Below, one piece after another: positions 8,783 to 39,502 of a DNA stretch of 52,413 bases (the first letter of the stretch is position 1; the number at the start of each line of letters is the position of its first letter). Source of the stretch: an uncultured Oscillibacter sp. (GTDB lineage: Bacteria; Bacillota; Clostridia; Oscillospirales; Oscillospiraceae); contig CATNDJ010000013.1 of assembly GCA_950097265.1 (NCBI GenBank), forward strand, positions 7,517-59,929, written 5' to 3'. Under the pieces are notes generated by a model. It was not told where the DNA came from. It worked only from the letters and a program-made list of their open reading frames with translations, and did no database searches. The position numbers and the translations under genes are program-made.

Positions 8783-8877
8783 TGCAACAGTTTAAACCAC
8801 TGGGGCATGCTATGCTGTTTGATGCTGTCATCACAGAATGAGACTTAAGGATGGGACTTATGCAACAGTTTAAACCA
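8783..8877 (+). repeat. 17-bp direct repeat spanning a start codon
   Basis: TGCAACAGTTTAAACCA occurs exactly at 8783-8799 and 8861-8877, 78 bases apart. The second copy includes the last two bases of the ATG and the first codons of the DUF2156-GNAT gene; the first lies in its upstream region. It looks like a partial 5' duplication of the gene start. No open frame continues from the first copy. Confidence 0.7.
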
Positions 8878-10263
8878 GTGACAAAACAGGACGGCGCGAA
8901 GCTGCGGCGCTATTACAAGGACTGCGATTACGGCCTGTGCGAGTACTCCCTGGGCACCAAGCTCATGTGGAAGAAGGTGCTCCACCCCGCCTGGGCGGAG
9001 ATTGCGGGCTGCCTCGTGGTGCGGAACCGGGACGCCTATGGGTGGAACTTCGACTACCCGGTCCCCGGGCCGGAGGGGGACGTGGACGCGGCCCTGCGGG
9101 CTATTGAGGCCTACTGCCTGGAGGCGGGGCAGCTGCCCGTTATCTCCATGGTGCCGGAGCACCTGGCGGCAAAGGTGCTGAGCCGCTATCCCTACGTCCG
9201 GGTCAGCGACATCCGCACCTGGCGGGATTACGTGTACTATCGGGAGGATCTCCAGTATTTTACCGGGCGGCGTTACTCCGGCCAGCGGAACCATATCAAG
9301 AAATTCCGGGCCCAGTGGCCCGAGGCGGAGGTCCGGCCCCTGACGGCGGAGAGCGCGGGGGCGGTGGAGCAGTTCTGGAGGGACTACGAGGCGGAGTTCC
9401 CCAAGGGGGATAACGCCAAGGCCCTGGACGAGCTGAAGCTGGCCAAGAAGATGCTGAGGCTTGCGGGGAAGCCCTGGTTTGTCGGGGGCGGCATGTTCGA
9501 CGGGGACAAGCTCATCGCCCTGGCCCTGGCGGAGCGCTGCGGGGATACCCTTATTATCCACATTGAGAAGGCGCTGTACTCCTACACCGGGGTTTATCCC
9601 GCGTTTGTCCAGGCCTTTGCCCTGGCCTTCGGGGGAAACTGCCAGTGGATCGACCGGGAGGACGACGCGGCGGACAAGGGGCTGCGGACCTCCAAGCTCC
9701 AGTACGGCCCCGCCAAGCTGGCCCCCAAGTACCGCTTCGAGCCCATGAACGAGCTGATGCGCCACATCACGGAGATTCCCAGGGTGGAGACGGCCCGGCT
9801 GACCCTCTCCGCCCTGACGGAACAGGATATCCCCGCCTATAACGCCCTGGTGCTGGACCGGGAGCGGAACCGCTGGTGGGGCTATGACGACGTGGCGGGC
9901 CTGGGGGGTCCGGTGGAGGAGCGGAGCTTCTATAACGTTGCCAAGCGGGACTTTGAGAACCACCTGGCGGTGAACTTCGCCGTGCGGCTGGAGGGGAAGC
10001 TCATCGGCGAGGCGGTGCTCTACAACTTCGACTGCCGGGGCGGCGCGGAGCTGGGCTGCCGCATCGACAAGGCTTACGCCGGGCACGGCTACGGCGTGGA
10101 GGCGTTCACGGCGGCGGCGGAGTGGGGGCTGTACAAGCTCCACCTGGGCCGTGTGTTCGCCAAGTGCTATAAGGAGAACGAGGCGTCCTACAAGATGCTC
10201 TCCGCCTGTATGCGGAGGCACGGGGAGGACGAGACCTTCTTCTACTTTGAAAAACTGGTATGA
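8860..10263 (+). CDS. DUF2156 (phosphatidylglycerol lysyltransferase-like) / GNAT fusion protein
   Basis: A 467-residue two-domain protein. Residues about 1-300 match the DUF2156 fold of the LPG-synthase C-terminal type, a double GNAT-like module, with blocks such as YFTGRRYSGQRNHIKKF and FVGGGMFDGDKLIALALAE. Residues about 310-467 form a RimJ/RimL-type GNAT acetyltransferase, with GEAVLYNFDCRGGAELGCRI, YGVEAFTAAAEWGL and NEASYKMLSA. I chose ATG 8860, 8 bases after AAGGA; ATG 8851 overlaps that site. Acceptors of both domains are unknown. No N-terminal flippase segments are present. Confidence 0.82.
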   Translation: MQQFKPVTKQDGAKLRRYYKDCDYGLCEYSLGTKLMWKKVLHPAWAEIAGCLVVRNRDAYGWNFDYPVPGPEGDVDAALRAIEAYCLEAGQLPVISMVPEHLAAKVLSRYPYVRVSDIRTWRDYVYYREDLQYFTGRRYSGQRNHIKKFRAQWPEAEVRPLTAESAGAVEQFWRDYEAEFPKGDNAKALDELKLAKKMLRLAGKPWFVGGGMFDGDKLIALALAERCGDTLIIHIEKALYSYTGVYPAFVQAFALAFGGNCQWIDREDDAADKGLRTSKLQYGPAKLAPKYRFEPMNELMRHITEIPRVETARLTLSALTEQDIPAYNALVLDRERNRWWGYDDVAGLGGPVEERSFYNVAKRDFENHLAVNFAVRLEGKLIGEAVLYNFDCRGGAELGCRIDKAYAGHGYGVEAFTAAAEWGLYKLHLGRVFAKCYKENEASYKMLSACMRRHGEDETFFYFEKLV

Positions 10264-10308: not shown

Positions 10309-11190
10309 TCAATAGAACTCCTTGATGTACGCATCCACGTCCGCCCGGGTGCCCATGTAGGGGCCCGGGGTCTCCATCTTCAGGGAGACCAGCGCTGTGG
10401 CGGTCTGGAGGGCGGTGGGGATGTCCTGGGTCAGCCGCTCGTTGATGTAGCAGGCAAAGGTAGTGTCCCCCCGGCCGGTCCGGCCGCCCAGGCTCCGGGC
10501 CTTGATGGGGCAGGTGTAGACCTCCTTGCCGTCGTAGACCAGGACTTCGGTGTTGTGGGTAATGAGGATTTCTTTCGCGCCCCAGCCGTAAAGGACCTTG
10601 GCGGCCTCCACCCGGTCCGTGAGGCCGGTGAGGATTTCCGCCTCGGCGGCGTCGGTCTTCAGGAAGCGGACATAGGGGAGAAGCTCCTTCTTGGCCTCCC
10701 AGTCCCGGTAGACCATGCCGCCGTTCTCCTCCCAGCGGAGCATGCACTGCACGTCGATGGCCAGCATGGCCTTTTTCGCGGCGAAGGGCAGGAACTCGTC
10801 GGGGATGTCCCCGCCCACAAGACCCGCCAGATGCCAGATCTTCGCATCGATCTCCTCCGGGACCTCCTCGGGCCGGTAGGGGTCGATCTTGCTGTCCACG
10901 GTGGAGGTCCGGCGCTCCCGGTCCGGGGTGTGGTAGACGTTCTTAGTGACGAAGGAGCGGGTGCTGTGGAGGGGGAAAACCGTCGCGTTGGGCGCGGCGG
11001 CGAAGACGGCCTTCAGGTCCACCTGGGCGGTGTCCGCTTTGGGAAGCACAGCGGTCTTGTGCCCCATGTTGGCGGCGGCGAAGCCGGAGTAGTACACCGC
11101 TCCTCCGATGGCCTGGACGGTGGTCCCGTCATAGTCCACATTGGTGTCCTGGGCGATTTCACCGATAATCAAGGTGTTGAACTGGCTCAT
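10309..11190 (-). CDS. PfkB-family carbohydrate kinase
   Basis: A 293-residue ribokinase-like sugar kinase. The N-terminal NTLIIGEIAQDTNVDY and GGAVYYSGFAAANMG (pattern 1 region) and the C-terminal catalytic loop TGRGDTTFACYINERL place it in PfkB. The anion-hole motif reads GRGD instead of the usual GAGD; the catalytic Asp is kept. The substrate is unknown. It overlaps the upstream PHP gene by 4 bases and is presumably cotranscribed with lacI and PHP. The neighbouring transketolase suggests a sugar or sugar-acid pathway. Confidence 0.88.
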   Translation of the reverse strand: MSQFNTLIIGEIAQDTNVDYDGTTVQAIGGAVYYSGFAAANMGHKTAVLPKADTAQVDLKAVFAAAPNATVFPLHSTRSFVTKNVYHTPDRERRTSTVDSKIDPYRPEEVPEEIDAKIWHLAGLVGGDIPDEFLPFAAKKAMLAIDVQCMLRWEENGGMVYRDWEAKKELLPYVRFLKTDAAEAEILTGLTDRVEAAKVLYGWGAKEILITHNTEVLVYDGKEVYTCPIKARSLGGRTGRGDTTFACYINERLTQDIPTALQTATALVSLKMETPGPYMGTRADVDAYIKEFY

Positions 11191-11915
11191 TTTGCTTCCT
11201 CCTTCCGGATGGCCTCGTCGGCCTCCACAAACTCCTGGAACGCAGGGCTCCAGAGATGGAATTTATGACATTCAATCATGCGTTTGTAGGCGAAGGAATC
11301 GTGGACCCGCTCCGGCAGGATGACGGCGGTCCGGGCCTCGTCTCCGTCCCGGTGGGTGTCGGACCCGGCCAGGCGGAAGTACTCGGGATGGCGGCGGCAG
11401 AGGGCCAACGCTTTGTCGTTGTTGTTTTCGTGCCGGGGGTTTCCGTTGATGATTTCCGCCCCGTGGACGGCGGTTTCCTGGACCGGGGCGCTGCCCTTGC
11501 GGAAGGGATGGGCGTGGATGATGAGGACCTGGTCGTGGTACTTGTCGAAGAACTCCTGGGCGCTCATGCAGCAGATGTAGGGGTTGGAGCGGAGCCACTG
11601 TTCGTCGATGCCGTAGACCAGGTAGTCGTTGTCGTTCTCCGGGAAGCGGAGCTCCGCCCCCAGGATGACGTCCAGGCCCACCTCGTCGCCCCGGCGCTTG
11701 GAGGCGTGGTAGCCGCCCAGGTAGTGGTCCATGACCTTGTCCCAGTTGTGCTCCGTGTCGATGCGGGAGAGGTACTCCGGGTGAAGATGGTCCGTGACCA
11801 CCAGGCCGGTGAAGCCGTTGCGGACGTAGCGGTCCACCACGTCGGCGGCGTAGAGGTGGCCGCAGCGGCTGGTTTCGGCGGTGTGGGTGTGGGGGTCGTA
11901 GCGGTAGCCGTTCAT
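11187..11915 (-). CDS. PHP-domain phosphoesterase
   Basis: A 242-residue metal-dependent hydrolase of the PHP superfamily (histidinol-phosphatase-like). Metal ligands are visible in order: DPHTHTAETSRCGH near residues 7-20, VVTDHLHPE near 40-47, GAELRF near 87, IIHAHPF near 135-140 with IINGNPRHE behind it, and AGSDTHRDG near 190. Family members dephosphorylate small metabolites such as histidinol phosphate or ribose bisphosphate. The 4-base overlap with the PfkB kinase couples the two. The intact motifs argue for activity; the substrate is not known. Confidence 0.87.
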   Translation of the reverse strand: MNGYRYDPHTHTAETSRCGHLYAADVVDRYVRNGFTGLVVTDHLHPEYLSRIDTEHNWDKVMDHYLGGYHASKRRGDEVGLDVILGAELRFPENDNDYLVYGIDEQWLRSNPYICCMSAQEFFDKYHDQVLIIHAHPFRKGSAPVQETAVHGAEIINGNPRHENNNDKALALCRRHPEYFRLAGSDTHRDGDEARTAVILPERVHDSFAYKRMIECHKFHLWSPAFQEFVEADEAIRKEEAK

Positions 11916-11983: not shown

Positions 11984-12994
11984 TTAAGACGCGTAGAGGT
12001 CCCGGCAGGTGCTGCGCTTGATCAGCGTGGGCATGAGAATCTGATGGACGTAGCCCTGGGTGCCGTTTTCAATTTTGTCCCGGAGCATATCCACCGCCTG
12101 GACGGCCATGTCCCGCTTGGGCTGCTCCATGGTGGTCAGCTCAATCCGGGGCAGGGCGGTGGAGGAGATGTTGTCGAAGCCGATGAGGCTCAGCTGCTCG
12201 GGGATGCTGATGTGGGCGTCGTCCGCCGCCTTGAGCACGCCCAGGGCGTTGGAGTCCGTGGAGGCGAAGATGGCGGAATAATCAATGGGCCTGGCGAAGA
12301 GCTCCTTGGCCAGCTGATAGCCGCCGGTAATGGAGGAGCGGGTGAACTCGCTGTTGAAGAAACGGGGCGTCAGGCCCAGCTCCCGGCAGGCCCGGATGTA
12401 GCCCTCGGCCCGGAACTGGTGGGTGGTGGTGTGGCGGCGGCCGAAGTAGAGGATGTCCCGGTGGCCCAGGTCATAGAGGTACTTCGTGCCGATATAGGTT
12501 CCCCGGCTGTTGTCCACGGCCACATAGCTCTGGGGCTGGTCCCGAAGATTCTCGCTGAGGAAAACCGTGGGTACCTGGTCCGTGTAGGCCCGGATGTTTT
12601 CATAGGTCTTGGGGCTCTGGGGGACGATCAGGATGCCGTCCACCTGCCGGCTGAGGAGGAGCTTTACCACGGTCTTCTCCTGCTTCAGATCCGGTCCGGA
12701 GTTGCAGAGCATGATGTTGTAGCCGTGCCCCCGGGCGCTCATCTCGGCGTAGTAGGCCAGCTCGGACATGAACTGGTTGTCGATGGAGGGGACCACTAAG
12801 CCGATGAGCCCGGTGCGCTTGGTCACCATGGAGCGGGCCACGTAGTTGGTGGTGTAGCCCATCTCGTCGCAGAGCTTGATGATGCGTTCCCGGGTGTCGC
12901 TTCCGATCTGATGGCTGCCGGAGAGGGCGCGGGAAACGGTGGCGTAGGAGACGCCGGCGGCCTTGGCGACGTCTTTTAAGGTTACACTTTTCAT
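11984..12994 (-). CDS. LacI-family transcriptional repressor
   Basis: A 336-residue repressor with the LacI helix-turn-helix at residues 4-24 (VTLKDVAKAAGVSYATVSRAL), a hinge near 45-58 and a periplasmic-binding-protein-like sensor domain. Sensor blocks are RTGLIGLVVPSIDNQF, FLSENL, FASTDSNALG and LIGFDNIS. Two copies of one operator lie in the divergent region, one in its own leader (13023-13036) and one just past the start of the HAD operon (13237-13250). It therefore probably controls both itself and the HAD-transketolase genes. PHP and PfkB follow 68 bases downstream, probably in the same transcript. Confidence 0.95.
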   Translation of the reverse strand: MKSVTLKDVAKAAGVSYATVSRALSGSHQIGSDTRERIIKLCDEMGYTTNYVARSMVTKRTGLIGLVVPSIDNQFMSELAYYAEMSARGHGYNIMLCNSGPDLKQEKTVVKLLLSRQVDGILIVPQSPKTYENIRAYTDQVPTVFLSENLRDQPQSYVAVDNSRGTYIGTKYLYDLGHRDILYFGRRHTTTHQFRAEGYIRACRELGLTPRFFNSEFTRSSITGGYQLAKELFARPIDYSAIFASTDSNALGVLKAADDAHISIPEQLSLIGFDNISSTALPRIELTTMEQPKRDMAVQAVDMLRDKIENGTQGYVHQILMPTLIKRSTCRDLYAS

Positions 12995-13022: not shown

Positions 13023-13036
13023 AACCGTAAACGTTT
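13023..13036 (+). promoter_or_regulatory. LacI-type operator, lacI leader copy
   Basis: AACCGTAAACGTTT, centred on the palindrome AAACGTTT typical of LacI/CcpA-class sites. It lies 29 bases upstream of the lacI start and about 50 bases past the predicted transcription start. It is an exact 14-bp inverted copy of the site at 13237-13250. Confidence 0.8.
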
Positions 13037-13189: not shown

Positions 13190-13219
13190 TTGACAAAAGG
13201 GCGGTGTTTCATTTAGAAT
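13190..13219 (+). promoter_or_regulatory. promoter of the HAD-transketolase operon
   Basis: TTGACA (13190-13195) and TAGAAT (13214-13219) with an 18-base spacer. The predicted start, near 13226, is immediately before the LacI-type operator at 13237-13250, the expected geometry for repression. Confidence 0.78.
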
Positions 13220-13236: not shown

Positions 13237-13250
13237 AAACGTTTACGGTT
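13237..13250 (-). promoter_or_regulatory. LacI-type operator, HAD operon copy
   Basis: The plus strand reads AAACGTTTACGGTT, the exact reverse complement of the operator at 13023-13036. It lies 18 bases past the -10 box of the operon promoter. Confidence 0.8.
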
Positions 13251-13332
13251 GGGCCGGAGACGGCCCGGCCGCCCCCTGGAGCGCCGTTCCAGGGGCCCGC
13301 GACGTCTGAAAACATGAATGGAGGAATTTCTT

Positions 13333-14067
13333 ATGACCCCCGATATCAAAACGATCTTTTTCGACGTTGGCAACACGCTCCGCATCGTGCTGAAGGAGCA
13401 GGACTTCATCGACCGGGCCGAGGCCGGGCTGATGGAGCTCATTCACACCACCGAGACCCATGACGAGCTCTTCGCCAAGCTGGAGGAGCGGTGGAAGAAG
13501 TACCGCAAGATGTCCAAGGACACCCTGCTGGACGCCTCCGAGGGCGAGCTGTGGACCCAGTATATGCTGCCGGAGTATGACACCAATATGATCTTCACCA
13601 ACGCGGCGAAGCTGACCCGCCTGTGGCGGGACCACGACGGCCGCCGGGTGGCCCGGGCCGACGCCGTGGCGACCCTCAAGGAGCTCTGCGCCCGGGGATA
13701 CACCCTGGGTATCATCGCCAACACCGTCACCGAGACGGAGATCCCCGACTGGATGGCCACCGACGGCGTGGCCCAGTGCTTCAAGACCACCATCCTCTCC
13801 TCCAAGGTCCGCCTGCGCAAGCCGGACCCGGAGATCTACCACCTGGCCTGCCGCTGCATCGGCACTCCGGAGGCCAACTGCGCCTACGTGGGCGACAACC
13901 CGGTCCGGGACGTGGAGGGCACCCAGGCCGCGGGCTTCGGCATGATGATCCGCATCGACGAGCCCGACACCCTGAACATGGAGCACGCCACCGGAAAGGA
14001 ATTTACCCCCGACCATGTGATCACCGCGCTCTCTCAGCTTCTCGATATCTTCCCCGCCCGTACTTAA
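13333..14067 (+). CDS. HAD-superfamily hydrolase, paralogue 1 of 3
   Basis: A 244-residue HAD-like hydrolase. Motif I FFDVGNTLR near residues 8-16 keeps the nucleophile Asp but has Gly at the second-Asp position. Motif II is IIAN, motif III the Lys in LRKPDPEIY, and motif IV YVGDNPVRDVEG. A helical cap lies at about 20-95. I chose ATG 13333 because GGAGGA ends 7 bases upstream. First gene after the LacI-controlled promoter and followed by two clear paralogues, all with similar cap helices and ending near LLDIFP or LLDLLP. Substrate unknown; probably a sugar or acid phosphate. Confidence 0.88.
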   Translation: MTPDIKTIFFDVGNTLRIVLKEQDFIDRAEAGLMELIHTTETHDELFAKLEERWKKYRKMSKDTLLDASEGELWTQYMLPEYDTNMIFTNAAKLTRLWRDHDGRRVARADAVATLKELCARGYTLGIIANTVTETEIPDWMATDGVAQCFKTTILSSKVRLRKPDPEIYHLACRCIGTPEANCAYVGDNPVRDVEGTQAAGFGMMIRIDEPDTLNMEHATGKEFTPDHVITALSQLLDIFPART

Positions 14068-14088: not shown

Positions 14089-14826
14089 ATGGATACGACC
14101 AAGCGCTATAAGGCCGTCTTTTTCGACCTGGGAGGCACCCTGCGCATCGCACTGCTGGAGGAGCCCTGGATGAAGCACGCCCGCCGGAAGATGGCGGAGA
14201 TCGCCGGGGCCCCCGTGCCCTACGAGGAGTTTTACCAGATGATCGAAGAGCGCTATGAGCCCTACCGGGACTGGGCGCTGAGCGAGAATAAGGAGTCCAA
14301 TGACGAGGAGCTCTGGTGCAAGTGGCTGCTGCCGGACTACGACCAGGCCCGCATCAAGCAGGTCTGCCACGAGCTGAGCTTCCAGTACCGCCAGTGCAAG
14401 GGCCGCCGGGTGGTGGTCGACGGCGGCGTGGAGGTCATCAAGGGCCTCCATGACCGGGGCTACAAGCTGGGCATCATCTCCAACCTCATCGGGGAAAACG
14501 AGGTTCCCGACTGGCTGGAGGAGGACGGCCTGGCGGAGTACTTCGACACCGTCATCCTCTCCTCCGTCTGCGGGCTGCGGAAGCCCTGCTCTGAGATTTA
14601 CGACGTCGCCTGCAAGGACATCGGCGTGGCGCCGGAGGACTGCGTGTCCGTGGCGGACAATGTGAAACGGGACATCACCGGGGCCAAGGAAGCGGGAATC
14701 GGCTGCAACATCATCTTCCGCTCCCCGGAGAAGAAGCACGCCGTGGAGTTCACCGAGGCCAACCGCCCCGACGCGGTGGTCGGCGACTTCCGGGAAATTC
14801 TGGATTTGCTTCCTCCCTTGAATTAA
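14089..14826 (+). CDS. HAD-superfamily hydrolase, paralogue 2 of 3
   Basis: A 245-residue paralogue of the preceding gene, 21 bases behind it. Motif I is FFDLGGTLR, motif II IISN, motif III GLRKPCSEIYD, and motif IV SVADNVKRDITGAKEAGIG, where the usual VGD has become VAD. Like its neighbours it lacks the general acid/base Asp two residues after the nucleophile. HAD phosphatases generally use that second Asp, so the three may hydrolyse slowly, act on unusual leaving groups, or bind rather than turn over substrate. Confidence 0.87.
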   Translation: MDTTKRYKAVFFDLGGTLRIALLEEPWMKHARRKMAEIAGAPVPYEEFYQMIEERYEPYRDWALSENKESNDEELWCKWLLPDYDQARIKQVCHELSFQYRQCKGRRVVVDGGVEVIKGLHDRGYKLGIISNLIGENEVPDWLEEDGLAEYFDTVILSSVCGLRKPCSEIYDVACKDIGVAPEDCVSVADNVKRDITGAKEAGIGCNIIFRSPEKKHAVEFTEANRPDAVVGDFREILDLLPPLN

Positions 14827-14905: not shown

Positions 14906-15682
14906 ATGAACACCGATATTCGTTACATCTTCCTGGACCTGGGGGGCACTTTCCGGGTCATCGACGAGGACCCCGCCTACCTCTCCGCCGCCCGGGCGAA
15001 AATCGCTGAGCTCTGCGGCGTGGAGACCGACAACCCGAACCAGTGGTTCAGCGACGTCATCGACAAACGGTATGACAAATACCGGGACTGGGCCCTGAAA
15101 TTCATGTGCGAGGCCCCGGAGGAGGTCCTGTGGACCCGGTGGCTGGCCTATGACATGGACAAAGAGCGTATTTTGAAGAACGCCGCTGAGCTGACCTACC
15201 AGTACCGCCAGACCAAGGGCCGCCGGACGGTGGTCGAGGGCGGCGCGGAGACGGTCAAGGAGCTGTGCGCCCGGGGCTACACGATGGGCATCATCAGCGA
15301 TCTGGTGGGCAAACGGGAGGTGGACGAGTGGCTGGACGCCGACGGCCTCCGGCCTTACTTCAAGACCGTCCAGCAGTCCTCCATCACCTACATCCGCAAG
15401 CCCGGCCCCGCCATCTACTACTATGCCATGGAAGAAGTGGGGGCCCAGCCGGAGAACTGCTGCTATGTGGGCGACAACCTGAACCGGGACATTGTGGGGG
15501 CCAAGGCCGTGGACTTCGGCATGACGGTTACCGTGCAGTACGACCGGAGCAAGCCCCTGAAGCTGACGGAGGAGAACATGCCCGACGGCAAGGTCTACAC
15601 CTTCCCCCAGCTTCTGGACATCTTCCCCCAGCGGGGCAAGGTGGATGTGGATAAGCTCATCGCCCCCAACGACGGACAATAA
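14906..15682 (+). CDS. HAD-superfamily hydrolase, paralogue 3 of 3
   Basis: A 258-residue third paralogue. Motif I is FLDLGGTFR, motif II IISD, motif III TYIRKPGPAIY, and motif IV YVGDNLNRDIVGAK. The Asp nucleophile is kept and the second Asp is Gly, as in the other two. It has a longer cap (DNPNQWFSDVIDKRYDKYR) and a short C-terminal extension. It is 21 bases upstream of the permuted mutase and probably translated from the same message. Triplication with divergence suggests related substrates rather than simple gene dosage. Confidence 0.87.
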   Translation: MNTDIRYIFLDLGGTFRVIDEDPAYLSAARAKIAELCGVETDNPNQWFSDVIDKRYDKYRDWALKFMCEAPEEVLWTRWLAYDMDKERILKNAAELTYQYRQTKGRRTVVEGGAETVKELCARGYTMGIISDLVGKREVDEWLDADGLRPYFKTVQQSSITYIRKPGPAIYYYAMEEVGAQPENCCYVGDNLNRDIVGAKAVDFGMTVTVQYDRSKPLKLTEENMPDGKVYTFPQLLDIFPQRGKVDVDKLIAPNDGQ

Positions 15683-15703
15683 GTTATATAGGAGGTTTTT
15701 TAT

Positions 15704-17272
15704 ATGGCAGACATCAAACGCGGCGGCGCTCAGCTGGCTGAGGCCGTCAAGAAGGCATACGAGCTGGGTCAGGACGACTACCACCTGGAACCCATGGTCC
15801 TGGTGGAGGACGGCAAGCCCGTGGGCAAGATTTCCGACGGCGACGCGGCCATCTTCTGCTGCCGCCGGGGCGAGCGGGAAATCGAGCTTACCGAGATGTT
15901 CACCGAGCCCGATTTTGACAAAGTGGACCGCCAGATGCTCCGGGACCTGGACTTTGTCATTATGACCATGTACCACGACAAGTTCAAGGATTTGCCCATT
16001 GCCTTCGCCCCCGCCAAGGTGGTGAAGCCCCTGGCCCAGGTCCTCAGCGAGGCGGGGAAGACCCAGTTCCACTGCGCCGAAAGCGAGAAGTTCGCCCACG
16101 TGACGTTCTTCTTTAACGGCGGCGAGAACAACCCCTTCCCGGGGGAGGACGACGTGTGCATCCCCTCTCCCAAGGGCATCGACTTCGACCAGCAGCCGGA
16201 GCTGTCCCTGCCCAAGGTGGCGGACACCGTCATGGACGCCCTGGGGAAATATGACTTCGTGGTGACCAACTTCGCCAACGGAGACGTCATTGGACACACC
16301 CAGAACACGGAAGCCAAAATCAAGGCCTGCGGCTATGTGAGCCAGTACCTGGATAAAGTGGTGAACGACGCCCTGGGGAAGGGCTACGTGGTGGCGATTA
16401 CGGCGGACCACGGAAACATCGAAAAGCTCTACACCGCCGCCGGAAAGCCCGACGGGGCCCACACCACCAACCTGGTGCCCTTCATCATGATCGACCCCGC
16501 CGACAAGAGCCCCATCGCCCTCCGGGACGGCTCCCTGGGCGACGTGTCTCCCACGGTGCTGAAGGTCCTGGGCATCCCCCAGCCCACCGAGATGGACGGC
16601 AAGCCCCTCTGTGAGGGCAAGGACTGGGGCGAGGGCCGGAAGATGCTCCTCATCATCTGCGACGGCTGGGGCCTGGGCACCGGGGACGACGGCGACGCCA
16701 TCCACCTGGCGGACACTCCCTATTGGGACTCCCTGCTGGCGAACCAGTCCTGGTCCAAGCTCAACGCCTCCGGCGAGTTCGTGGGCCTGGGCGCGGGGAA
16801 GGCCGGCAACTCCGAGGCGGGCCACTCCAACCTAGGCGCGGGCCGCTGCGTAATGCAGGACGACGTCCGGCTGGACGCCGCCGTGAGGGACGGCAGCTTT
16901 AAACAGAACCCCATCTTCCTCCAGGCCATCGAGCACGCCAAGAAAAACGGCACCTCCCTGCACCTGCTGGCCTATCTGACCTATAAATCCTCCCACGGGT
17001 GCATCGACTACCCGCTGAACATCTGCGAGATGGCCCGGGACAACGGGTTGGACCGGGTGTATCTCCACATCATCTTCGACGGCCGCTCCACCGAGCCCGG
17101 GTCCGCCCCCGCGCTGCTGGCGGAGACCGACGAAAAGCTGAATGCCATCGGCGTGGGCCGCATCGTGGACGGCGTGGGCCGGGGCGTGGCCCTGGACCGG
17201 GACAAGAACTACGACAAGGTCAAACGGGCCTACGACGCCATGGTCGAGGGCGCCGGAACCCAGTACGAATAA
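15704..17272 (+). CDS. circularly permuted cofactor-independent phosphoglycerate mutase-like enzyme
   Basis: A 522-residue protein with the sequence of GpmI in swapped order. Residues about 10-303 match the family's second half: SDGDAAIFCCRRGER (R54/55, R58), AESEKFAHVTFFFNGG (K129), NFANGDVIGHT (D194, H198), ITADHGN (D235, H236), GAHTTN (H253) and GDVSPTVLKVLGIPQP. After a linker near 304-312, residues about 313-522 match the first half: LLIICDGWGLG (D320), GNSEAGHSNLGAGR (nucleophile S370), H431, DGRS (R461), and GRGVALDRDK (R493, R499). The split falls in domain B, giving B2-A2-A1-B1. Both metal sites and most substrate ligands remain; family Asp154 is Ser462. A GGAGG site precedes the ATG. 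Activity may be mutase or altered. Confidence 0.93.
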   Translation: MADIKRGGAQLAEAVKKAYELGQDDYHLEPMVLVEDGKPVGKISDGDAAIFCCRRGEREIELTEMFTEPDFDKVDRQMLRDLDFVIMTMYHDKFKDLPIAFAPAKVVKPLAQVLSEAGKTQFHCAESEKFAHVTFFFNGGENNPFPGEDDVCIPSPKGIDFDQQPELSLPKVADTVMDALGKYDFVVTNFANGDVIGHTQNTEAKIKACGYVSQYLDKVVNDALGKGYVVAITADHGNIEKLYTAAGKPDGAHTTNLVPFIMIDPADKSPIALRDGSLGDVSPTVLKVLGIPQPTEMDGKPLCEGKDWGEGRKMLLIICDGWGLGTGDDGDAIHLADTPYWDSLLANQSWSKLNASGEFVGLGAGKAGNSEAGHSNLGAGRCVMQDDVRLDAAVRDGSFKQNPIFLQAIEHAKKNGTSLHLLAYLTYKSSHGCIDYPLNICEMARDNGLDRVYLHIIFDGRSTEPGSAPALLAETDEKLNAIGVGRIVDGVGRGVALDRDKNYDKVKRAYDAMVEGAGTQYE

Positions 17273-17471: not shown

Positions 17472-18305
17472 ATGAATGAGAAAAAGCTAAAAGTCCTGGC
17501 GGCGGAGATCCGGCTGGAGACGCTGAAGGTGATCCACAGCCGGGGCTTCGGCCACGTAGGCGGGTCCATGGACCTGGCGGATCTGATGGCGGTGCTGTAC
17601 GGCGAGGTCATGAAATTTGATCCGAAGAATCCCCGCTGGGAAGACCGCGACTGGCTGGTCCTCAGCAAGGGCCATGCGGGCCCTGTGGCTTACGCCACCT
17701 TCGGCCTGATGGGCTTCTATCCCATGGAAGACGCGTACACCTTGAACCAGCCCGGCACCAAGTTCCCCAGCCACACGGACCGGAAGCTGACCCCCGGCGT
17801 GGACCTGACCACCGGCTCTCTGGGCCAGGGCGTGTCCACGGCCACCGGCGCGGCCCTGGGCAACAAGATCGACGGACGGGACAGCTATGTTTTCTGCGTC
17901 GTCGGCGACGGCGAGGCGGATGAAGGCCAGGTTTGGGAGGGCTTCCATTTTGCCTACGCCCACAAACTGGACAATATCATCTATTTCATTGACAACAACG
18001 GCTACCAGCTGGACGGAAAAACCGACGACATCCTGGCCCACGGGGATATCGCGAAAAAGGTGGAGGGCTTCGGCCTCCATACCCAGGTCATCGACGGACA
18101 TGACGTAAAAGCCATCTATGAGGCCATTGAAGCGGCGAAAGCGGCCAAGGGCGTGCCCTCCTGCATCGTGCTGAACACCAGCAAGGGCAAGGGCGCGACG
18201 TTCGCGGAGCCCAAGCACGACCACTCCTCCCAGCCCAAGGAGGAGCAGTGGCAGGAGGCCATCGCGGCCGCCGAGAAGGCTCTGGAAGACGCCAAGAACG
18301 CATAA
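17472..18305 (+). CDS. transketolase, N-terminal (TPP-binding) subunit
   Basis: The first half of a split transketolase, 277 aa. It holds the thiamine-diphosphate region: GFGHVGGSMDLADLMAVLYG near 25-45, LSKGHAGPVAYA near 65, TGSLGQGVSTATGAALG near 118, and the TPP motif GDGEADEGQVWEG then DNNGYQLDGKTDD. It transfers two-carbon ketol units between sugar phosphates together with the next gene product. The 277-aa size is normal for split bacterial transketolases. GGAAAGGAAG precedes the ATG; the partner gene starts 15 bases after the stop. Confidence 0.95.
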   Translation: MNEKKLKVLAAEIRLETLKVIHSRGFGHVGGSMDLADLMAVLYGEVMKFDPKNPRWEDRDWLVLSKGHAGPVAYATFGLMGFYPMEDAYTLNQPGTKFPSHTDRKLTPGVDLTTGSLGQGVSTATGAALGNKIDGRDSYVFCVVGDGEADEGQVWEGFHFAYAHKLDNIIYFIDNNGYQLDGKTDDILAHGDIAKKVEGFGLHTQVIDGHDVKAIYEAIEAAKAAKGVPSCIVLNTSKGKGATFAEPKHDHSSQPKEEQWQEAIAAAEKALEDAKNA

Positions 18306-18320
18306 AGGAGGGTGAGAGAA

Positions 18321-19292
18321 ATGAATGTGAAACTGATTGGCAAGCATGAAAAGGACTCCCGGGCGTGCCGGGACGGCCTGGCTCTGACCCTGAACGAGCT
18401 GATGGCCCAGGATAAGAGCATCGTGTATGTGGACTGCGACCTGATGGGCTGCATCAACACGAAGCAGCTTCGAGCCAACTACCCTGACCGGGCCTTCGAG
18501 GCGGGCATCGCCGAGGGCAACGCCGCCGGTGTGGCTGCGGGCCTGGCCGCCACGGGAAAGAAGGTCTTCTTCCACTCCTTCGGCACCTTCTCCTCCCGCC
18601 GGTGCTATGACCAGATTTACATGAGCGCGGCGTACGCGGGCCTCAGCGTCCGGGTGCTGGGCTCCGACGCGGGCGTGACGGCGGCTTTCAACGGCGGCAC
18701 CCACATGCCCTTGGAGGATGCGGCCATGTACCTGTCCATCCCCACCGCCACGGTGATCGACCCCGCCGACTACGACCAGCTGGCCAGCGTCACCCGCGGG
18801 CTTCTCAATGTGGAGGGCGTGAGCTTCACCCGCTTTGTCCGCAAGGACGTCATCCGGGTCTATGACGAGGGCTCTGAGTTTGAGATTGGCAAGGGTGTAG
18901 TACTTCACGAAAGTGCCGACGACAAGGCGACCATCATCACCTCCGGCATCATGGTGGACGAGAGCCTGAAAGCCTACGAGGCCCTCCAGGCCGAGGGGAT
19001 CAACGTCCGGGTCATCGACATGTTCACCTGGAAGCCCCTGGATGAGGAGCTGGTGCTGAAAGCGGCCAAGGAGACCGGGGCCATTGTCACCGCCGAGAAC
19101 CACAACACCTGCTGCGGCCTGGGTTCTGTGGTTGCCAACTGCCTGGCGAAGAACTGCCCCACCGTCCAGGAGTTCGTGGGCGTGCAGGACGAGTTCGGCC
19201 AGGTGGGTCCCCAGGCGTTCCTGATGGACACCTACGGCCTCCGTGCGGCCAACATCATCGAGGCCGTCAAAAAGGCGATTTCCCGGAAATAA
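18321..19292 (+). CDS. transketolase, C-terminal subunit
   Basis: The second half of the split transketolase, 323 aa. It has the pyrimidine-binding domain (DLMGCINTKQLRANYPDRAFEAGIAEGNAAGVAAGLA region, with the catalytic Glu in EAGIAEGN) and the C-terminal transketolase domain with TWKPLDEE and TAENHNTCCGLGS. I chose ATG 18321, 6 bases after GGAGGGTG; GTG 18312 lies inside that site. It pairs with the gene just upstream as an alpha2-beta2 enzyme. The two are followed by an alcohol dehydrogenase that could reduce an aldehyde released by the pathway. Confidence 0.94.
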   Translation: MNVKLIGKHEKDSRACRDGLALTLNELMAQDKSIVYVDCDLMGCINTKQLRANYPDRAFEAGIAEGNAAGVAAGLAATGKKVFFHSFGTFSSRRCYDQIYMSAAYAGLSVRVLGSDAGVTAAFNGGTHMPLEDAAMYLSIPTATVIDPADYDQLASVTRGLLNVEGVSFTRFVRKDVIRVYDEGSEFEIGKGVVLHESADDKATIITSGIMVDESLKAYEALQAEGINVRVIDMFTWKPLDEELVLKAAKETGAIVTAENHNTCCGLGSVVANCLAKNCPTVQEFVGVQDEFGQVGPQAFLMDTYGLRAANIIEAVKKAISRK

Positions 19293-19334: not shown

Positions 19335-20522
19335 ATGGCTCAGAAAATGGACGCTTTTTCCGCCTCTTTGATGGCCGACAAGCGTGAAATCATCTTTGCC
19401 CCCACCGTGTACAAGTTCGACACCTTCGCCGCCATGGCGGAGGAGTTCAAGCTGAATGAGCGGGACGTGGTGCTGACCAACGAGTTCATCTACACCCCCT
19501 TCATGAAGGAGCTGGGCCTCAAGTGCCAGTTCGTGTTCCAGGAGAAGTTCGGCGCCGGCGAACCCTCCGAGGCCATGATCCAGACCATGTACGACGCCAT
19601 CCCCTACGAGAGCTATGACCGGGTCATCGCCGTGGGCGGCGGCGCCATCATGGACCTGTGCAAGCTGCTGGGCTGCAAGCGGCCGGACACCGTGCATAAC
19701 CTGTATTTCAAGCGCTTCCCCGTCCAGCATGAGAAAGACGTCATCGCCATTCCGACGACCTGCGGAACGGGCTCCGAGTGCACGAACATCTCCGTGGCCA
19801 TTGTCAAGGACGAAAAAGACGGCGTGCTGACCGGCGGCGAGACCAAACTGGGCCTGGTGTCCGACGACATCATCCCCAACAAGGTGTGCCTGATCCCGGA
19901 CCTCATCAAGACCCTGCCCTACAAGCCCTTCGCCTGCTCCGCCATCGACGCGCTGGTCCACGCTACCGAGTCCTTCCTGAGCCCCCACCGCAAGACGATG
20001 ACCAGCGAGCTGTTCAGCGAGAAGGCCATGGACATGATCCTGAAGGGCTTCAAGCTCATCGACGAGAAGGGCCAGGACGCCCGGTTCGAGTACCTGGACG
20101 AGTTCGTGACCGCCAGCTTCTACGCGGGCATCGCCTTCCTGAAGGCGGGCTGCGGCCCGGTCCACGGCATGAGCTTCCCCCTGGGCGGCACCTACCACGT
20201 GGCCCACGGCGAAAGCAACTATATGCTGTTCGGAGCCATCATGGATTACTATGATGAGAAGAACCCGGACGGCGAAATCATGCGCTTCAAGGAGCTGGTG
20301 GCCCGGATTCTCGGCTGCGAGGCCAAGAACGCCATCCCCGAGATGAACGCCCTGCTCCAGCGCATCCTGCCCCTGCGGCCCCTCCGCGACTGCGGCTTCA
20401 CGGAGGAGGACTTCAAGAAGTTCCCCCAGAGCGTGGAGGCCAACCAGCAGCGGCTGATGACGAACGCCTACTATCCCTTCGATCTGGAGAGCGAGGAAGC
20501 CATCTACAGAAAGTGCTTCTAA
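19335..20522 (+). CDS. iron-containing alcohol dehydrogenase, 4-hydroxybutyrate dehydrogenase type
   Basis: A 395-residue group III (Fe) alcohol dehydrogenase. The NAD-binding AVGGGAIMD is near residue 97-105, and PTTCGTGSECTNISVA near 139-154. Metal-site residues appear in SAIDALVHATESFLSPH and AGCGPVHGMSFPLGGTYHVAHGE. Throughout it resembles clostridial 4-hydroxybutyrate dehydrogenase (VYKFDT, LTNEFIY, FQEKFGAGEPS). It would reduce succinic semialdehyde or another short aldehyde with NAD(P)H. It follows transketolase by 42 bases and converges with a 4-hydroxybutyrate-type CoA-transferase, which supports the family call; a sugar-derived aldehyde is the alternative substrate. Confidence 0.85.
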   Translation: MAQKMDAFSASLMADKREIIFAPTVYKFDTFAAMAEEFKLNERDVVLTNEFIYTPFMKELGLKCQFVFQEKFGAGEPSEAMIQTMYDAIPYESYDRVIAVGGGAIMDLCKLLGCKRPDTVHNLYFKRFPVQHEKDVIAIPTTCGTGSECTNISVAIVKDEKDGVLTGGETKLGLVSDDIIPNKVCLIPDLIKTLPYKPFACSAIDALVHATESFLSPHRKTMTSELFSEKAMDMILKGFKLIDEKGQDARFEYLDEFVTASFYAGIAFLKAGCGPVHGMSFPLGGTYHVAHGESNYMLFGAIMDYYDEKNPDGEIMRFKELVARILGCEAKNAIPEMNALLQRILPLRPLRDCGFTEEDFKKFPQSVEANQQRLMTNAYYPFDLESEEAIYRKCF

Positions 20523-20538: not shown

Positions 20539-20574
20539 AAAGGCGGGCAGTTCCTTCCGGAACTGCCCGCCTTT
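20539..20574. terminator. bidirectional terminator
   Basis: Perfect 15-bp stem AAAGGCGGGCAGTTC/GAACTGCCCGCCTTT with a 6-base loop. T-rich sequence follows on the plus strand; on the minus strand the stem overlaps the CoA-transferase stop codon. Confidence 0.85.
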
Positions 20575-21878
20575 TAATCTTCCTCTCCGTAGCGGCTGCG
20601 GCAGGCCTCCCGGAGCTGTTCGCGGAATTTAGGGTGCGCGATGGAGATCAGCAGCCTGGCCCGCTCCCGCAGGCTTTTGCCTCGGAGATTGACCGCGCCG
20701 TATTCGGTGACGATGTAGTGTACGTCCGTGCGGGTGGTGGTGACCGTGGTCCCGGCCTCAAATACGGGGACGATGCGGGAGATCTCTCCCTGCCGGGCTG
20801 TGGAGGGCATGGCAAGGATGGCCTTTCCGTCGGGGCACATGGCCGCGCCGCGGACGTAGTCCAGCTGGCCGCCCACGCCGGAGAACTGCTTGACGCCCAT
20901 GGACTCGGAGTTTACCTGGCCGTTGAGGTCCACCTGCAAACAGGAGTTGATGGCCACCACCTTGGGATTTTGGCAGATAACGGCGGGGTTGTTGACATAG
21001 TCCACCGTTTTCACCAGCACGCCGGGGTGGTTGTCCACGAAGTCGTACAGCTTCCTGGTGCCCATCAGGAACGCGGCCACCATCTTGCCCCTGTCCAGGG
21101 TTTTGTTGGCCCCGGTGATGACGCCCTTTTCGTACAGGTCCACCACGCCGTCGGAGAACATCTCGGAGTGGATGCCCAGGTCCTTTTTATCCCCCAGGAA
21201 CTTCAGGACGGCGTCGGGGATAGAGCCGATACCCAGCTGCAAAGTGGACCCGTCCTCCACCAGGGCGGCGATGTTGCGGCCGATGGCCTCCCCCACCTCG
21301 CCGATGGGGCCGGGGCTCAGTTCAGGCAGGGGGGTGGAGGCCTCTACGCAGCAGCTCAGCTGGGAGACGTGCAGGAAGGAGTCGCCCATGGTGCGGGGCA
21401 TTTGGTCGTTGACCTGGGCGATGACGAGCCCGGCGTTTAAGGCGGCGGCCTTGGTGCCGCCCACGCTGACGCCCAGGGAGACATAGCCGTGGGCGTCAGG
21501 CGGCGTCACAGAGACCAGGGCCGCGTCGATGGGAAAGGTCCCGTCCGAGAAAAAGCGGGGGGCCTGGTGGTAGAAGAAGGGGGTGTAGTCCGCCCGGCCC
21601 TCCTGGACGGCGCTGCGGGTGGAGTTTCCCACGAACAGGGCGTTGTGCCGCATGTGGCCCTTCATTTTGGGGTCGCAGTATTCGCTTTTGCCCATGGGGA
21701 CCCAGTGGACGATTTCCAGGTCCCGAAACTGCCGGTAGCCGCGCACCAGGGCGTCTACCAGCACGGGAGGCTGGTTGGCTGCCTGACCGAAAAAGACCCG
21801 GGAACCGTTGGGAATGCGCCGGACGGCCTCGTCTGCCGAGGTCAATTTGGACTCGTAAAGCTGCCGCCAATCCATCAT
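20574..21878 (-). CDS. acetyl-CoA:carboxylate CoA-transferase, 4-hydroxybutyrate (AbfT/Cat2) type
   Basis: A 434-residue family I CoA-transferase that moves CoA from acetyl- or butyryl-CoA to an acid such as 4-hydroxybutyrate. The catalytic Glu lies in LGIHSEMFSDGVVDLYE near residue 238. CoA-binding blocks are STLQLGIGSIPDAVL and KQFSGVGGQLDYVRGA, and the C-terminal half has VTEYGAVNLRGKSL. The N-terminus DWRQLYESKLTSADEAV is as in AbfT. I set the start at ATG 21878 behind AGGAGG 12 bases away; the frame stays open upstream but without family similarity. Butyryl-CoA:acetate transferase is the alternative. It converges with the 4-hydroxybutyrate dehydrogenase-like gene. Confidence 0.87.
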   Translation of the reverse strand: MMDWRQLYESKLTSADEAVRRIPNGSRVFFGQAANQPPVLVDALVRGYRQFRDLEIVHWVPMGKSEYCDPKMKGHMRHNALFVGNSTRSAVQEGRADYTPFFYHQAPRFFSDGTFPIDAALVSVTPPDAHGYVSLGVSVGGTKAAALNAGLVIAQVNDQMPRTMGDSFLHVSQLSCCVEASTPLPELSPGPIGEVGEAIGRNIAALVEDGSTLQLGIGSIPDAVLKFLGDKKDLGIHSEMFSDGVVDLYEKGVITGANKTLDRGKMVAAFLMGTRKLYDFVDNHPGVLVKTVDYVNNPAVICQNPKVVAINSCLQVDLNGQVNSESMGVKQFSGVGGQLDYVRGAAMCPDGKAILAMPSTARQGEISRIVPVFEAGTTVTTTRTDVHYIVTEYGAVNLRGKSLRERARLLISIAHPKFREQLREACRSRYGEED

Positions 21879-22011
21879 AACGCTCTTCTGCCTCCTGAAA
21901 AGTATTGAACGTCCCGCCGATAGGGGAAGAGGACACGAAAGAGAAAAGACCGTAGGGTTTCGGGGCCTTTCACCGGAAAGATCGGAAAATCTGGCAGACG
22001 CCGCATCCTCC

Positions 22012-22046
22012 TCAACCGAGAACCCAGCGAAGCGGTTCTCGGTTGA
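22012..22046. repeat. 13-bp inverted repeat upstream of the CoA-transferase gene
   Basis: Perfect arms TCAACCGAGAACC and GGTTCTCGGTTGA with a 9-base loop, between tRNA-Gln and the CoA-transferase. It may be a leader hairpin, an operator or a remnant repeat. Apart from it and the tRNA terminator, I see nothing else in 21900-22076. Confidence 0.55.
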
Positions 22047-22076
22047 AAGCGAAGAAAAAACCCGTCCGGCGTATGA

Positions 22077-22116
22077 AAAAAGCCCTAAGGCTTTTTTCAT
22101 CGCCTTAGGGCTTTTT
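22077..22116 (-). terminator. tRNA-Gln terminator
   Basis: Stem AAAAAGCCCTAAGGC/GCCTTAGGGCTTTTT (15 bp) with a short loop, 7 bases past the tRNA 3' end on the minus strand and flanked by T runs on both strands. Confidence 0.88.
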
Positions 22117-38076: not shown

Positions 38077-39420
38077 TCAGTATTCGCAATGGTTCAGGGT
38101 TCCCCAGAGCTTCTTGGAAACCTGGAGAATCTCCGCGTTGACGGCCTCCTCGTCAATCTCCGTGAGCCGGCGGTCGCGCATCAGAATTTTTCCGTTGACC
38201 ATGGTGGTCTGGCACTGGCGGCCCGTCATGCCGAAGAGCATGTGCCCGTCGATGTTGGCGTCGGAGAAGGGGGTGAAGGGCTTGTAGTCCATAACGATGA
38301 CGTCCGCCGCCGCTCCGGCCTTCAGCACGCCCATCTCGGGGAAGCCGCAGCGGGCCGCCATTTTGGCGTTGTTCTTGAAGAGCATATCCGTCACCTCGCA
38401 CCAGCCCACGCCGGGGAGGCAGGCGTTGTGCCGCTGGATGGTCAGGGCTACTTTGATGCTCTCCAGCATGTCGTTGGTGTAGGCGTCGGTGCCCAGGCCC
38501 ACCAGAATGCCCTTCTTGTAAAGCTGGAGCACCGGAGAGCAGCCCACGGCGTTGCCCATGTTGCTTTCCGGGTTGTTGACGCACATGGTGTCCGTTTCTT
38601 TGATGATGTCCATTTCCGCCGTGTTCACGTGGATGCAGTGGCCCAGGATGGTCTTGGGGCCCAGGATGCCGTGGTCCTGGAGCCGCTGGACCGGGCGGCG
38701 GCCGTAGTTCTGGAGGGAGTCGTAGACGTCGTTCATGCCCTCGGAGACGTGGATGTGGTAGCCCACCCGTCCCCCGTTGGCCTCCGCCATCCGGTCGAAG
38801 GTCTTGTCGGAGATGGTAAACAGGGCGTGGCCGCCGAACATGGCCTTCAGCATGTCCGAGGGGTGCGCCTCACAGTAGTCGATGAAGTCCTTGTTCTCCC
38901 GGACGGACTGGAGGGATTTTTCCTCCCCGTCCCGGTCGCTGACCTCGTAGCACAGGCAGGCCCGGAGGCCCATGGATTCCGTGACCTTGGCGATCTCCAT
39001 CAGGGAGCCGGGGATTTCGCAGAAGGAGGCGTGGTGGTCGAAGATGGTGGTGACGCCCTGCTTGATGGAGTCGATGACCAGGGCCTGTGCGCTGGCCTTC
39101 GTGGCCGCCAGGTCCAGGTGGCGGTCGATGTACCACCACTGGCCGTCCAGCACCTCGTAAAAATTGGTGGGGGCGTAGCCGTTGATGCTGAGGCCCCGGG
39201 CCAGGGCGGAGTAGATGTGGGTGTGGGCGTTGATGAGGCCGGGCATGATGACTCCGCCTTTCGCGTCCACGAACTCCGCCTGGGGGTATTTGGCTTTCAG
39301 GGCGGCGGTCTCGCCAACCTCCACGATCTTTCCGCCCTCGGTGACCACGCCGCCGTCGGGCAGGTAGCCCGCGCCGTCGGGGTCCCGGGTGATGAGCTTG
39401 CCGTTTGCCAGTAGGATCAT
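38077..39420 (-). CDS. ssnA: putative aminohydrolase SsnA
   Basis: A 447-residue metal-dependent amidohydrolase of the TRZ/ATZ/SsnA group. Metal ligands are visible: HTH in INAHTHIYSALARG near 65, His in YHIHVSEG near 220, His in LGHCIHVN, and Asp in GLGTDAYTN near 315. SsnA is grouped with ygfK, ygeX and xdh in gut bacteria that degrade purines; the exact amide substrate is not settled. ATG 39420 has AAGGAGGAG upstream; the frame is open to 39492 but lacks similarity there. It is first in the ssnA-ygfK operon, driven by the promoter at 39576-39604. Confidence 0.93.
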   Translation of the reverse strand: MILLANGKLITRDPDGAGYLPDGGVVTEGGKIVEVGETAALKAKYPQAEFVDAKGGVIMPGLINAHTHIYSALARGLSINGYAPTNFYEVLDGQWWYIDRHLDLAATKASAQALVIDSIKQGVTTIFDHHASFCEIPGSLMEIAKVTESMGLRACLCYEVSDRDGEEKSLQSVRENKDFIDYCEAHPSDMLKAMFGGHALFTISDKTFDRMAEANGGRVGYHIHVSEGMNDVYDSLQNYGRRPVQRLQDHGILGPKTILGHCIHVNTAEMDIIKETDTMCVNNPESNMGNAVGCSPVLQLYKKGILVGLGTDAYTNDMLESIKVALTIQRHNACLPGVGWCEVTDMLFKNNAKMAARCGFPEMGVLKAGAAADVIVMDYKPFTPFSDANIDGHMLFGMTGRQCQTTMVNGKILMRDRRLTEIDEEAVNAEILQVSKKLWGTLNHCEY

Positions 39421-39502
39421 AGTAAAACTCCTCCTTGAATTGAATTTGGGTAAAAAAGAAAGGCGCCCCAAATCCACTCGGACTTGAAACACCTATCGGC
39501 TC

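Follow-up and report, generated by a model that had tools for sequence, protein, structure and literature searches.

Judged by its sequence, the open reading frame at 15704-17272 of the DNA analysed here is a natural circular permutant of the cofactor-independent phosphoglycerate mutase GpmI, in which the second half of the enzyme comes first and is connected by a linker to the first half. We consider it rather probable that this permuted paralogue, which we term cpPGM, acts on an imported and probably multiply phosphorylated metabolite. The window, i.e., the whole analysed stretch of 52,413 nt, comes from an uncultured Oscillibacter sp. (GCA_950097265.1, contig CATNDJ010000013.1, positions 7,517-59,929, forward strand), and an AGGAGG at 15690-15695 lies ahead of the cpPGM frame. 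Positions 214-503 of the GpmI model TIGR01307 match residues 12-302 of cpPGM, and the same arrangement is seen with the GpmI of B. stearothermophilus (1ejj), whose residues 218-508 align with cpPGM residues 13-302 (219.0 bits) and whose residues 6-213 align with residues 314-521 (154.6 bits). Pfam recognizes PF01676 (8.2e-58) and PF06415 (1.7e-48), each in two stretches, and the PDB matches, 11 distinct sequences, are all phosphoglycerate mutases, again aligned in two stretches each. Both halves are significantly related to GpmI, the GpmI order with the N-terminal part before the C-terminal part was not encountered, and searches with the separate segments of TIGR01307 placed positions 213-503 ahead of positions 2-213 in the permuted proteins. 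A single frame with swapped GpmI halves, cut in domain B and joined by a short linker near residues 304-312, had already been proposed in the initial annotation. The separate alignment of the halves to GpmI profiles and to 1ejj bore this out: the family sequence is opened inside the transferase domain, between residues 213 and 218, and residues 303-313 of cpPGM form the linker. Since two hinge peptides link the phosphatase and transferase domains of GpmI (PMC5382265), the new ends are located inside the transferase domain. The whole-protein TIGR01307 score of cpPGM, 464.9 bits, exceeds the cut-off of 330.65 because the scores of the two segments are summed, and annotation pipelines are therefore expected to name the protein GpmI. 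The coordinates are collected in Table 1.

Table 1. Coordinates of the features discussed in the text, in positions of the window
Feature	Position	Strand	Basis
PfkB kinase, TM0415 relative; K171, R229, R232, M266 kept, Ile at F221	10309..11190	-	sequence match, signature residues
PHP-domain protein	11187..11915	-	weak Pfam match, below cut-off
LacI-family regulator, divergent from HAD/cpPGM genes	11984..12994	-	profile match
Operator-like AAACGTTT, LacI side of divergent intergenic region	13029..13036		shared word
Promoter-like TTGACA-18-TAGAAT upstream of HAD/cpPGM genes	13190..13219	+	consensus match only
Operator-like AAACGTTT, HAD side, right behind -10-like hexamer	13237..13244		shared word
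HAD hydrolase 1, motif I DVGNT	13318..14067	+	profile match, motif
HAD hydrolase 2, motif I DLGGT	14089..14826	+	profile match, motif
HAD hydrolase 3, motif I DLGGT	14906..15682	+	profile match, motif
cpPGM, circularly permuted GpmI paralogue, 522 aa	15704..17272	+	Pfam, TIGR01307, PDB-sequence matches
cpPGM residues 12-302 = family 214-503: last stretch of transferase domain B followed by the phosphatase domain A part with the metal ligands	15737..16609	+	TIGR01307; nt range computed from residues
Arg54 codon, family Phe260; Arg in 59/59 permuted proteins	15863..15865	+	family alignment
cpPGM residues 303-313, ~11-residue linker between old C and N termini	16610..16642	+	TIGR01307 and pairwise matches
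cpPGM residues 314-521 = family 6-213: domain A part with the nucleophile, followed by the beginning of domain B	16643..17266	+	pairwise match
Ser370 codon, nucleophile, family Ser62	16811..16813	+	family alignment
Ser462 codon, family Asp154; Ser in 59/59 permuted proteins	17087..17089	+	family alignment
Transketolase N-terminal subunit	17472..18305	+	profile match
Transketolase C-terminal subunit	18312..19292	+	profile match
Iron-containing alcohol dehydrogenase	19335..20522	+	profile match

The permuted order is widespread. An alignment-based scan of genome contigs found 225 relatives, the best 80 of which were kept and analysed, and these best 80 of 225 match end to end at 63-97% identity and all show the one permuted order that the initial annotation had suggested looking for in other genomes. 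In all 81 loci (these 80 and the window), the permuted gene is a single frame, and one of the best 80 of 225 is located on a complete chromosome (CP102272.1, [Clostridium] asparagiforme DSM 15981). The record names among the best 80 of 225 comprise Oscillospiraceae, Oscillibacter, Dysosmobacter, Lachnospiraceae, Erysipelotrichaceae, Christensenella, Chloroflexi, Flexilinea, and [Clostridium] asparagiforme, and according to the record titles their sources are largely gut and rumen samples. A search of 60 relatives included 13 genomes of the same genus, besides the window's own, with a full-length permuted frame and one with a contig-edge fragment; 14 of 37 own-genus genomes, own included, thus have the full-length frame, and the fragment represents a 15th carrier. 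At a threshold of 1e-120, the window protein found its own genome alone in a draw of 398 genomes of the phylum (1/398) and 2 of 394 genomes in a draw of the order, numbers that are low because this threshold is too strict for deep members of the family. With a profile that includes a deeper member, at 1e-95, 13 of the 398 phylum genomes were matched. Twelve of these have permuted proteins, counting the own genome and one protein truncated at a contig end, whereas the match in G191 is canonical. The distribution is patchy. The initial annotation knew of no described permuted member, and we likewise found no description of a permuted GpmI in the open-access literature, a search that leaves subscription papers mostly outside. 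The permuted GpmI family is old and conserved, and it is apparently undescribed.

To relate the permuted proteins to canonical GpmI, a quick tree without bootstrap was calculated from 66 rows, namely 36 canonical, 20 of 49 gut-type, and 10 deep permuted sequences, with the permuted sequences rotated to the family order. The two kinds were split at an SH-aLRT of 100, and the permuted proteins formed one clan, with two long end branches in the tree. In this unrooted tree, the permutation is most simply explained by a single origin, which is a reading and not a proof. A recent local rearrangement is ruled out by the separate clan of the permuted proteins. A canonical-order protein with Ser154 was not seen among the 36 aligned canonical sequences, and therefore no ancestor or intermediate was found. 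As to whether the host also has a normal gpm gene, a point raised in the initial annotation, the answer is divided: no canonical GpmI was found in the window's own genome (91.5% complete), where one ORF matched PF00300 in a comparison with this model alone, but a full canonical gpmI is present in 11 of the 15 own-genus carriers. Among the other four, G004 has a canonical-like fragment, and canonical gpmI was not found in three, which are the own genome, G005 (80% complete), and G012 (71%). When 14 genomes from several groups were checked with TIGR01307, ten had a full-length canonical match (own genus 3/4, f85 4/4, f91 2/2, f66 1/1), and it was absent from the own genome and from all three f79 genomes (G108, G182, and G441; 97-98% complete). 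The permuted gene is, in summary, usually a second copy beside canonical gpmI.

A comparison of 59 permuted with 36 canonical aligned proteins indicated what has been kept and what has been changed in the active site. The nucleophile and metal ligands S62, D12, D403, H407, D444, H445, and H462 are invariant in both sets, and so are H123, R153, R185, R191, R261, R264, and K336, which, like Asp154, we take to have phosphoglycerate-binding roles in GpmI; a published statement of such roles was not found in the open-access literature. The ligands assigned from the window sequence alone, D194/H198, D235/H236, H253, D320, and S370, align as claimed with family D403/H407, D444/H445, H462, D12, and S62. 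The two deviations noted at that time also proved to be features of the whole permuted family, as family Asp154, which is Ser462 in cpPGM, is Ser in 59/59, and the loop before His431 (family His123) is changed, with S429, S430, and G432 in 59/59. In addition to Ser for D154, all 59 permuted proteins have Arg for F260, Cys for N259, Glu for A265, Tyr for E231, Ser for G121, Ser for V122, Gly for S124, and Ser for T333, as compared to the canonical set with Asp154 in 36/36 and F260 in 35/36. In the gut group, His replaces R329 and Lys replaces G120 in about 98% each, exchanges that are not common to all deep members. Because Asp154 is lost and Phe260 is now an arginine, the substrate is probably not the glycolytic 2- or 3-phosphoglycerate. 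Phosphoglycerate may still bind, as all ten residues checked besides Asp154 and the metal ligands are kept, including R153, R185, R191, R261, R264, and K336. The pocket also does not simply gain positive charge, since R329 is changed to His in the gut group and A265 to Glu in 59/59.

These residues bear on the question of whether cpPGM could be an ordinary phosphoglycerate mutase isoenzyme that is merely permuted, still interconverts 2- and 3-phosphoglycerate, and acts in glycolysis as a back-up or under particular conditions. The retention of the metal ligands, Ser62, His123, and the substrate arginines and lysine in all 59 proteins would agree with this, as would the TIGR01307 score above the cut-off and the transketolase that adjoins cpPGM in the window, and as the three f79 genomes have no canonical GpmI match, cpPGM could be the glycolytic enzyme there. 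However, the aspartate at position 154 that every canonical sequence keeps is replaced in every permuted one, most carriers also have canonical gpmI, and cpPGM belongs to a regulon with an importer and HAD hydrolases, so that we regard a plain mutase as unlikely. An altered reaction, as suspected in the initial annotation, would be indirectly supported by the second copy, the family-wide changes of the pocket, and the regulated gene set of an organophosphate type.

This gene set was defined by clustering the ORFs of the 80 loci and the window into neighbour families, among which the ABC ATPase family is broad because of the single-linkage clustering. Among the 78 loci that extend far enough upstream of cpPGM, 69 have a HAD hydrolase gene directly before it. 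In the full set of 81 loci, many of which are cut by contig ends, HAD hydrolases were found in 76, LacI regulators in 63, PfkB kinases in 52, the binding protein in 29, a membrane pyrophosphatase in 26, MgtC in 24, PHP proteins in 22, as well as transketolase and alcohol dehydrogenase in 17. When only the 44 loci that reach at least 8 kb upstream and at least 3 kb downstream are counted, the numbers are 40 for HAD, 37 for LacI, 31 for PfkB, and 26 for the importer binding protein or permease, and importer genes are absent nearby in 18 of the 44. The fuller layout consists of the importer genes (permease, ATPase, binding protein, small membrane protein), a HAD gene, the reversed LacI gene, three or four HAD genes, cpPGM, and then MgtC, membrane pyrophosphatase, and PfkB genes. 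The window has PfkB, PHP, and LacI genes in reverse orientation, followed by three HAD genes, cpPGM, the split transketolase, and the alcohol dehydrogenase. Elsewhere in the window, an ORF at 8851-10263 fuses an LPG_synthase_C domain with a GNAT acetyltransferase domain, a CoA-transferase is encoded at 20574-22100 (-), with butyryl-CoA:acetate CoA-transferases as nearest models, all below cut-offs, and a flavin/iron-sulfur oxidoreductase-like ORF and two amidohydrolase-family ORFs lie at 35101-38049 (-), 38077-39492 (-), and 49196-50464 (-).

The HAD hydrolases have an unusual motif I. The three tandem HADs of the window have D-x-G-[GN]-T at this site. The second aspartate of the motif is the usual acid/base, and Gly takes its place in 273 of the 275 ORFs in which the motif pattern could be located (295 ORFs in the cluster). 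Because of this replacement, the D-x-G-type hydrolases may act on substrates with better leaving groups, say anhydrides or glycosyl phosphates. Among its many HAD matches, HAD 2 shows weak similarity to YihX, a glucose-1-phosphate phosphatase.

A shared operator-like word connects the regulator with the importer. In 58 of 60 loci, AAACGTTT is present in the region from -60 to +420 relative to the LacI start, with 79 sites versus 0.59 expected from the rest of those loci. In the own-genus genomes, the importer operon is located apart from the cpPGM locus; of 12 importer loci analysed, two end before the permease start. In all ten that include it (L187-L194, L196, and L198), the word lies at the permease start, in eight at most about 135 bases before the ORF and in two (L188 and L198) inside the longest reading of the ORF, among its first 26 bases. 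A further copy was noted near the start of an ABC protein pair of about 570-600 aa in 8 of the 10 importer loci. Of the 15 carriers, 12 have the importer binding protein at an identity of 70% or more, in one case as a fragment, versus 2 of 22 non-carriers, neither of which is more than 65% complete (Fisher 1.8e-5, kinship ignored), and in genomes of at least 90% completeness and at most 5% contamination, the ratio is 6/7 carriers versus 0/10 non-carriers (Fisher 5.7e-4, kinship likewise ignored). The binding protein was not found in the window's own genome (91.5% complete). We infer from the shared word that the HAD/cpPGM genes of the gut/rumen group and the importer belong to one LacI-controlled regulon.

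The deep group has a different gene set, which brings cyclic 2,3-diphosphoglycerate (cDPG) into view. When 14 genomes were checked for cDPG synthetase, five were found to have it, all of them deep-group carriers with the gene in the same operon as cpPGM (G095, G108, G182, G308, and G441). In the first four of these, the operon is complete with the order GntR, cDPG synthetase, binding protein, permease, ATPase, and cpPGM in last position; the contig of G441 begins at the synthetase, so that its operon lacks only the part beyond the contig end, and the operons of G284 and G331 are cut by contig ends. Bacterial cDPG synthetases in an operon with the importer and the permuted enzyme lie at L157:4915-6255 and in L172, L173, L174, and L176. 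cDPG is made from 2,3-diphosphoglycerate via a phosphoanhydride bond (PMC10690619, PMC12136491), and PMC10690619 describes it from archaeal methanogens only. This cyclic pyrophosphate accumulates in Methanobrevibacter smithii, and the synthetase of M. fervidus is reversible (PMC1224877). Imported cDPG could hence be opened by the synthetase running in reverse in the deep group, or by the D-x-G HADs in the gut group, and cpPGM would then remove a phosphate to yield phosphoglycerate. We judge this route to be improbable, as the synthetase was not found in the four own-genus and four f85 genomes of the 14 checked, nor in G284. Furthermore, we know of no cDPG transporter, and the TM0415-like kinase and LacI regulator of the gut-type set point to polyols or sugars instead.

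This kinase, encoded at 10309-11190, is a candidate PPi-dependent enzyme, and its relationship to TM0415, a PPi-dependent kinase that accepts myo-inositol (PMC5931981), raises the possibility that inositol (poly)phosphates, e.g., derivatives of dietary phytate, are used. Five HADs and cpPGM would then act on the phosphates, and the PfkB kinase would link inositol phosphate and PPi. The PPi-binding residues K171, R229, and R232 are conserved in 52/52 locus kinases, a membrane pyrophosphatase is found in 26 of the 81 loci, and the gut and rumen origin of most of the best 80 of 225 loci would also fit. On the other hand, no inositol catabolic gene was recognized among the annotated shared neighbourhood families, and PMC5931981 itself cautions that the true acceptor of TM0415 may be another compound than myo-inositol. 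A search for phytate together with the mutase gave nothing relevant in the open-access literature. GpmI enzymes bind a carboxylate, and inositol phosphates have none. We consider inositol phosphates doubtful as substrates.

Far less probable is a non-catalytic or decaying relic, hinted at solely by the Asp154 change, as the catalytic residues are invariant in 59/59 proteins whose divergence matches that of canonical GpmI in depth. That a normal gpmI gene was rearranged during assembly, conceivable for a window from a 139-contig draft assembly, is already refuted, since 80 other loci, one of them on a complete chromosome, show the same order and most carriers have canonical genes elsewhere.

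We thus return to a permuted paralogue that acts on an imported metabolite. Going by its residues, cpPGM would be an active two-metal enzyme that forms a phosphoserine: at the metal site, Ser370 would be phosphorylated by the substrate and would hand the phosphoryl group on, either to water or to a different hydroxyl on the molecule bound there. The substrate is probably an imported, multiply phosphorylated small molecule, such as a polyol or glycerate with neighbouring phosphates. In the gut/rumen group, the LacI-controlled importer would take up the compound, the D-x-G-type HADs and cpPGM would handle its phosphates, and the PPi-type PfkB kinase and sugar-phosphate enzymes would feed the remainder into central metabolism. 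Against this reading, cpPGM lies among other genes in the four f85 genomes, without an adjoining importer or HADs, 18 of the 44 loci with long flanks have no importer genes nearby, and the own genome showed no importer binding protein. The common thread of both groups is the combination of enzymes for neighbouring phosphates or phosphoanhydrides with an importer from a class that includes organophosphate transporters, i.e., AfuABC and transporters of pyridoxal phosphate (PMC4546632, PMC8427247). A more specific version, which we put forward only tentatively, is an as yet undescribed organophosphate-catabolic regulon of gut, rumen, and other anaerobes in which the ancient GpmI permutant acts on an imported polyphosphate, either methanogen-derived cDPG or an inositol polyphosphate, and in which PPi serves as energy currency via the TM0415-like kinase and the membrane pyrophosphatase. 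It is unusual for natural circular permutants of a central-metabolism enzyme to be old and widespread and to persist beside the normal copy, and current annotation models hide this permutation behind the name gpmI. If the gene set functions in the proposed way, it represents a new route for organic phosphates in animal guts, and it offers a test of how a phosphoryl-transfer pocket can be re-tuned after a permutation.

In comparison with known systems, cpPGM is closest to GpmI itself (TIGR01307; PF06415 and PF01676; 1ejj, 1o98), as each half has about 40-45% identity to canonical relatives and as the serine nucleophile, the metal ligands, and the substrate Arg, His, and Lys residues are common to both; it differs in the swapped halves, the separate clan, and the exchanges Asp154Ser, Phe260Arg, Asn259Cys, and Ala265Glu with a rewritten loop 119-124 in 59/59 permuted proteins. 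The PfkB kinases resemble the TM0415-type PPi-dependent ribokinase family, to which the window kinase is related with an E of 1.7e-39: of the signature K171, R229, R232, F221, and M266 described for TM0415 (PMC5931981), the three basic residues are kept in 52/52 and M266 in 51/52, whereas F221 is replaced in 52/52, by Ile in 21 and by Val in 31. The importers are similar to AfuABC/PhnSTUV-like systems in that the permease and ATPase give matches with PhnU2/PhnT2, as in the deep group the binding protein does with PhnS2, AfuA (4r72), and the pyridoxal-phosphate-binding protein P5PA (6wce), but the PhnT2 and PhnU2 scores, like those of the binding-protein model PhnS2, are all below the curated cut-offs, and the gut-type binding protein has no sequence match in the PDB. 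Finally, the deep-group neighbour protein matches the known cDPG synthetases (8ork, 9sxb) over nearly the whole length, at 1e-127 to 1e-128 for G095 (9.7e-128), and it differs from them in being bacterial and in being encoded in an importer operon. As a neighbour of cpPGM it occurs in the deep group only, in contrast to the kinase of the gut-type gene set.
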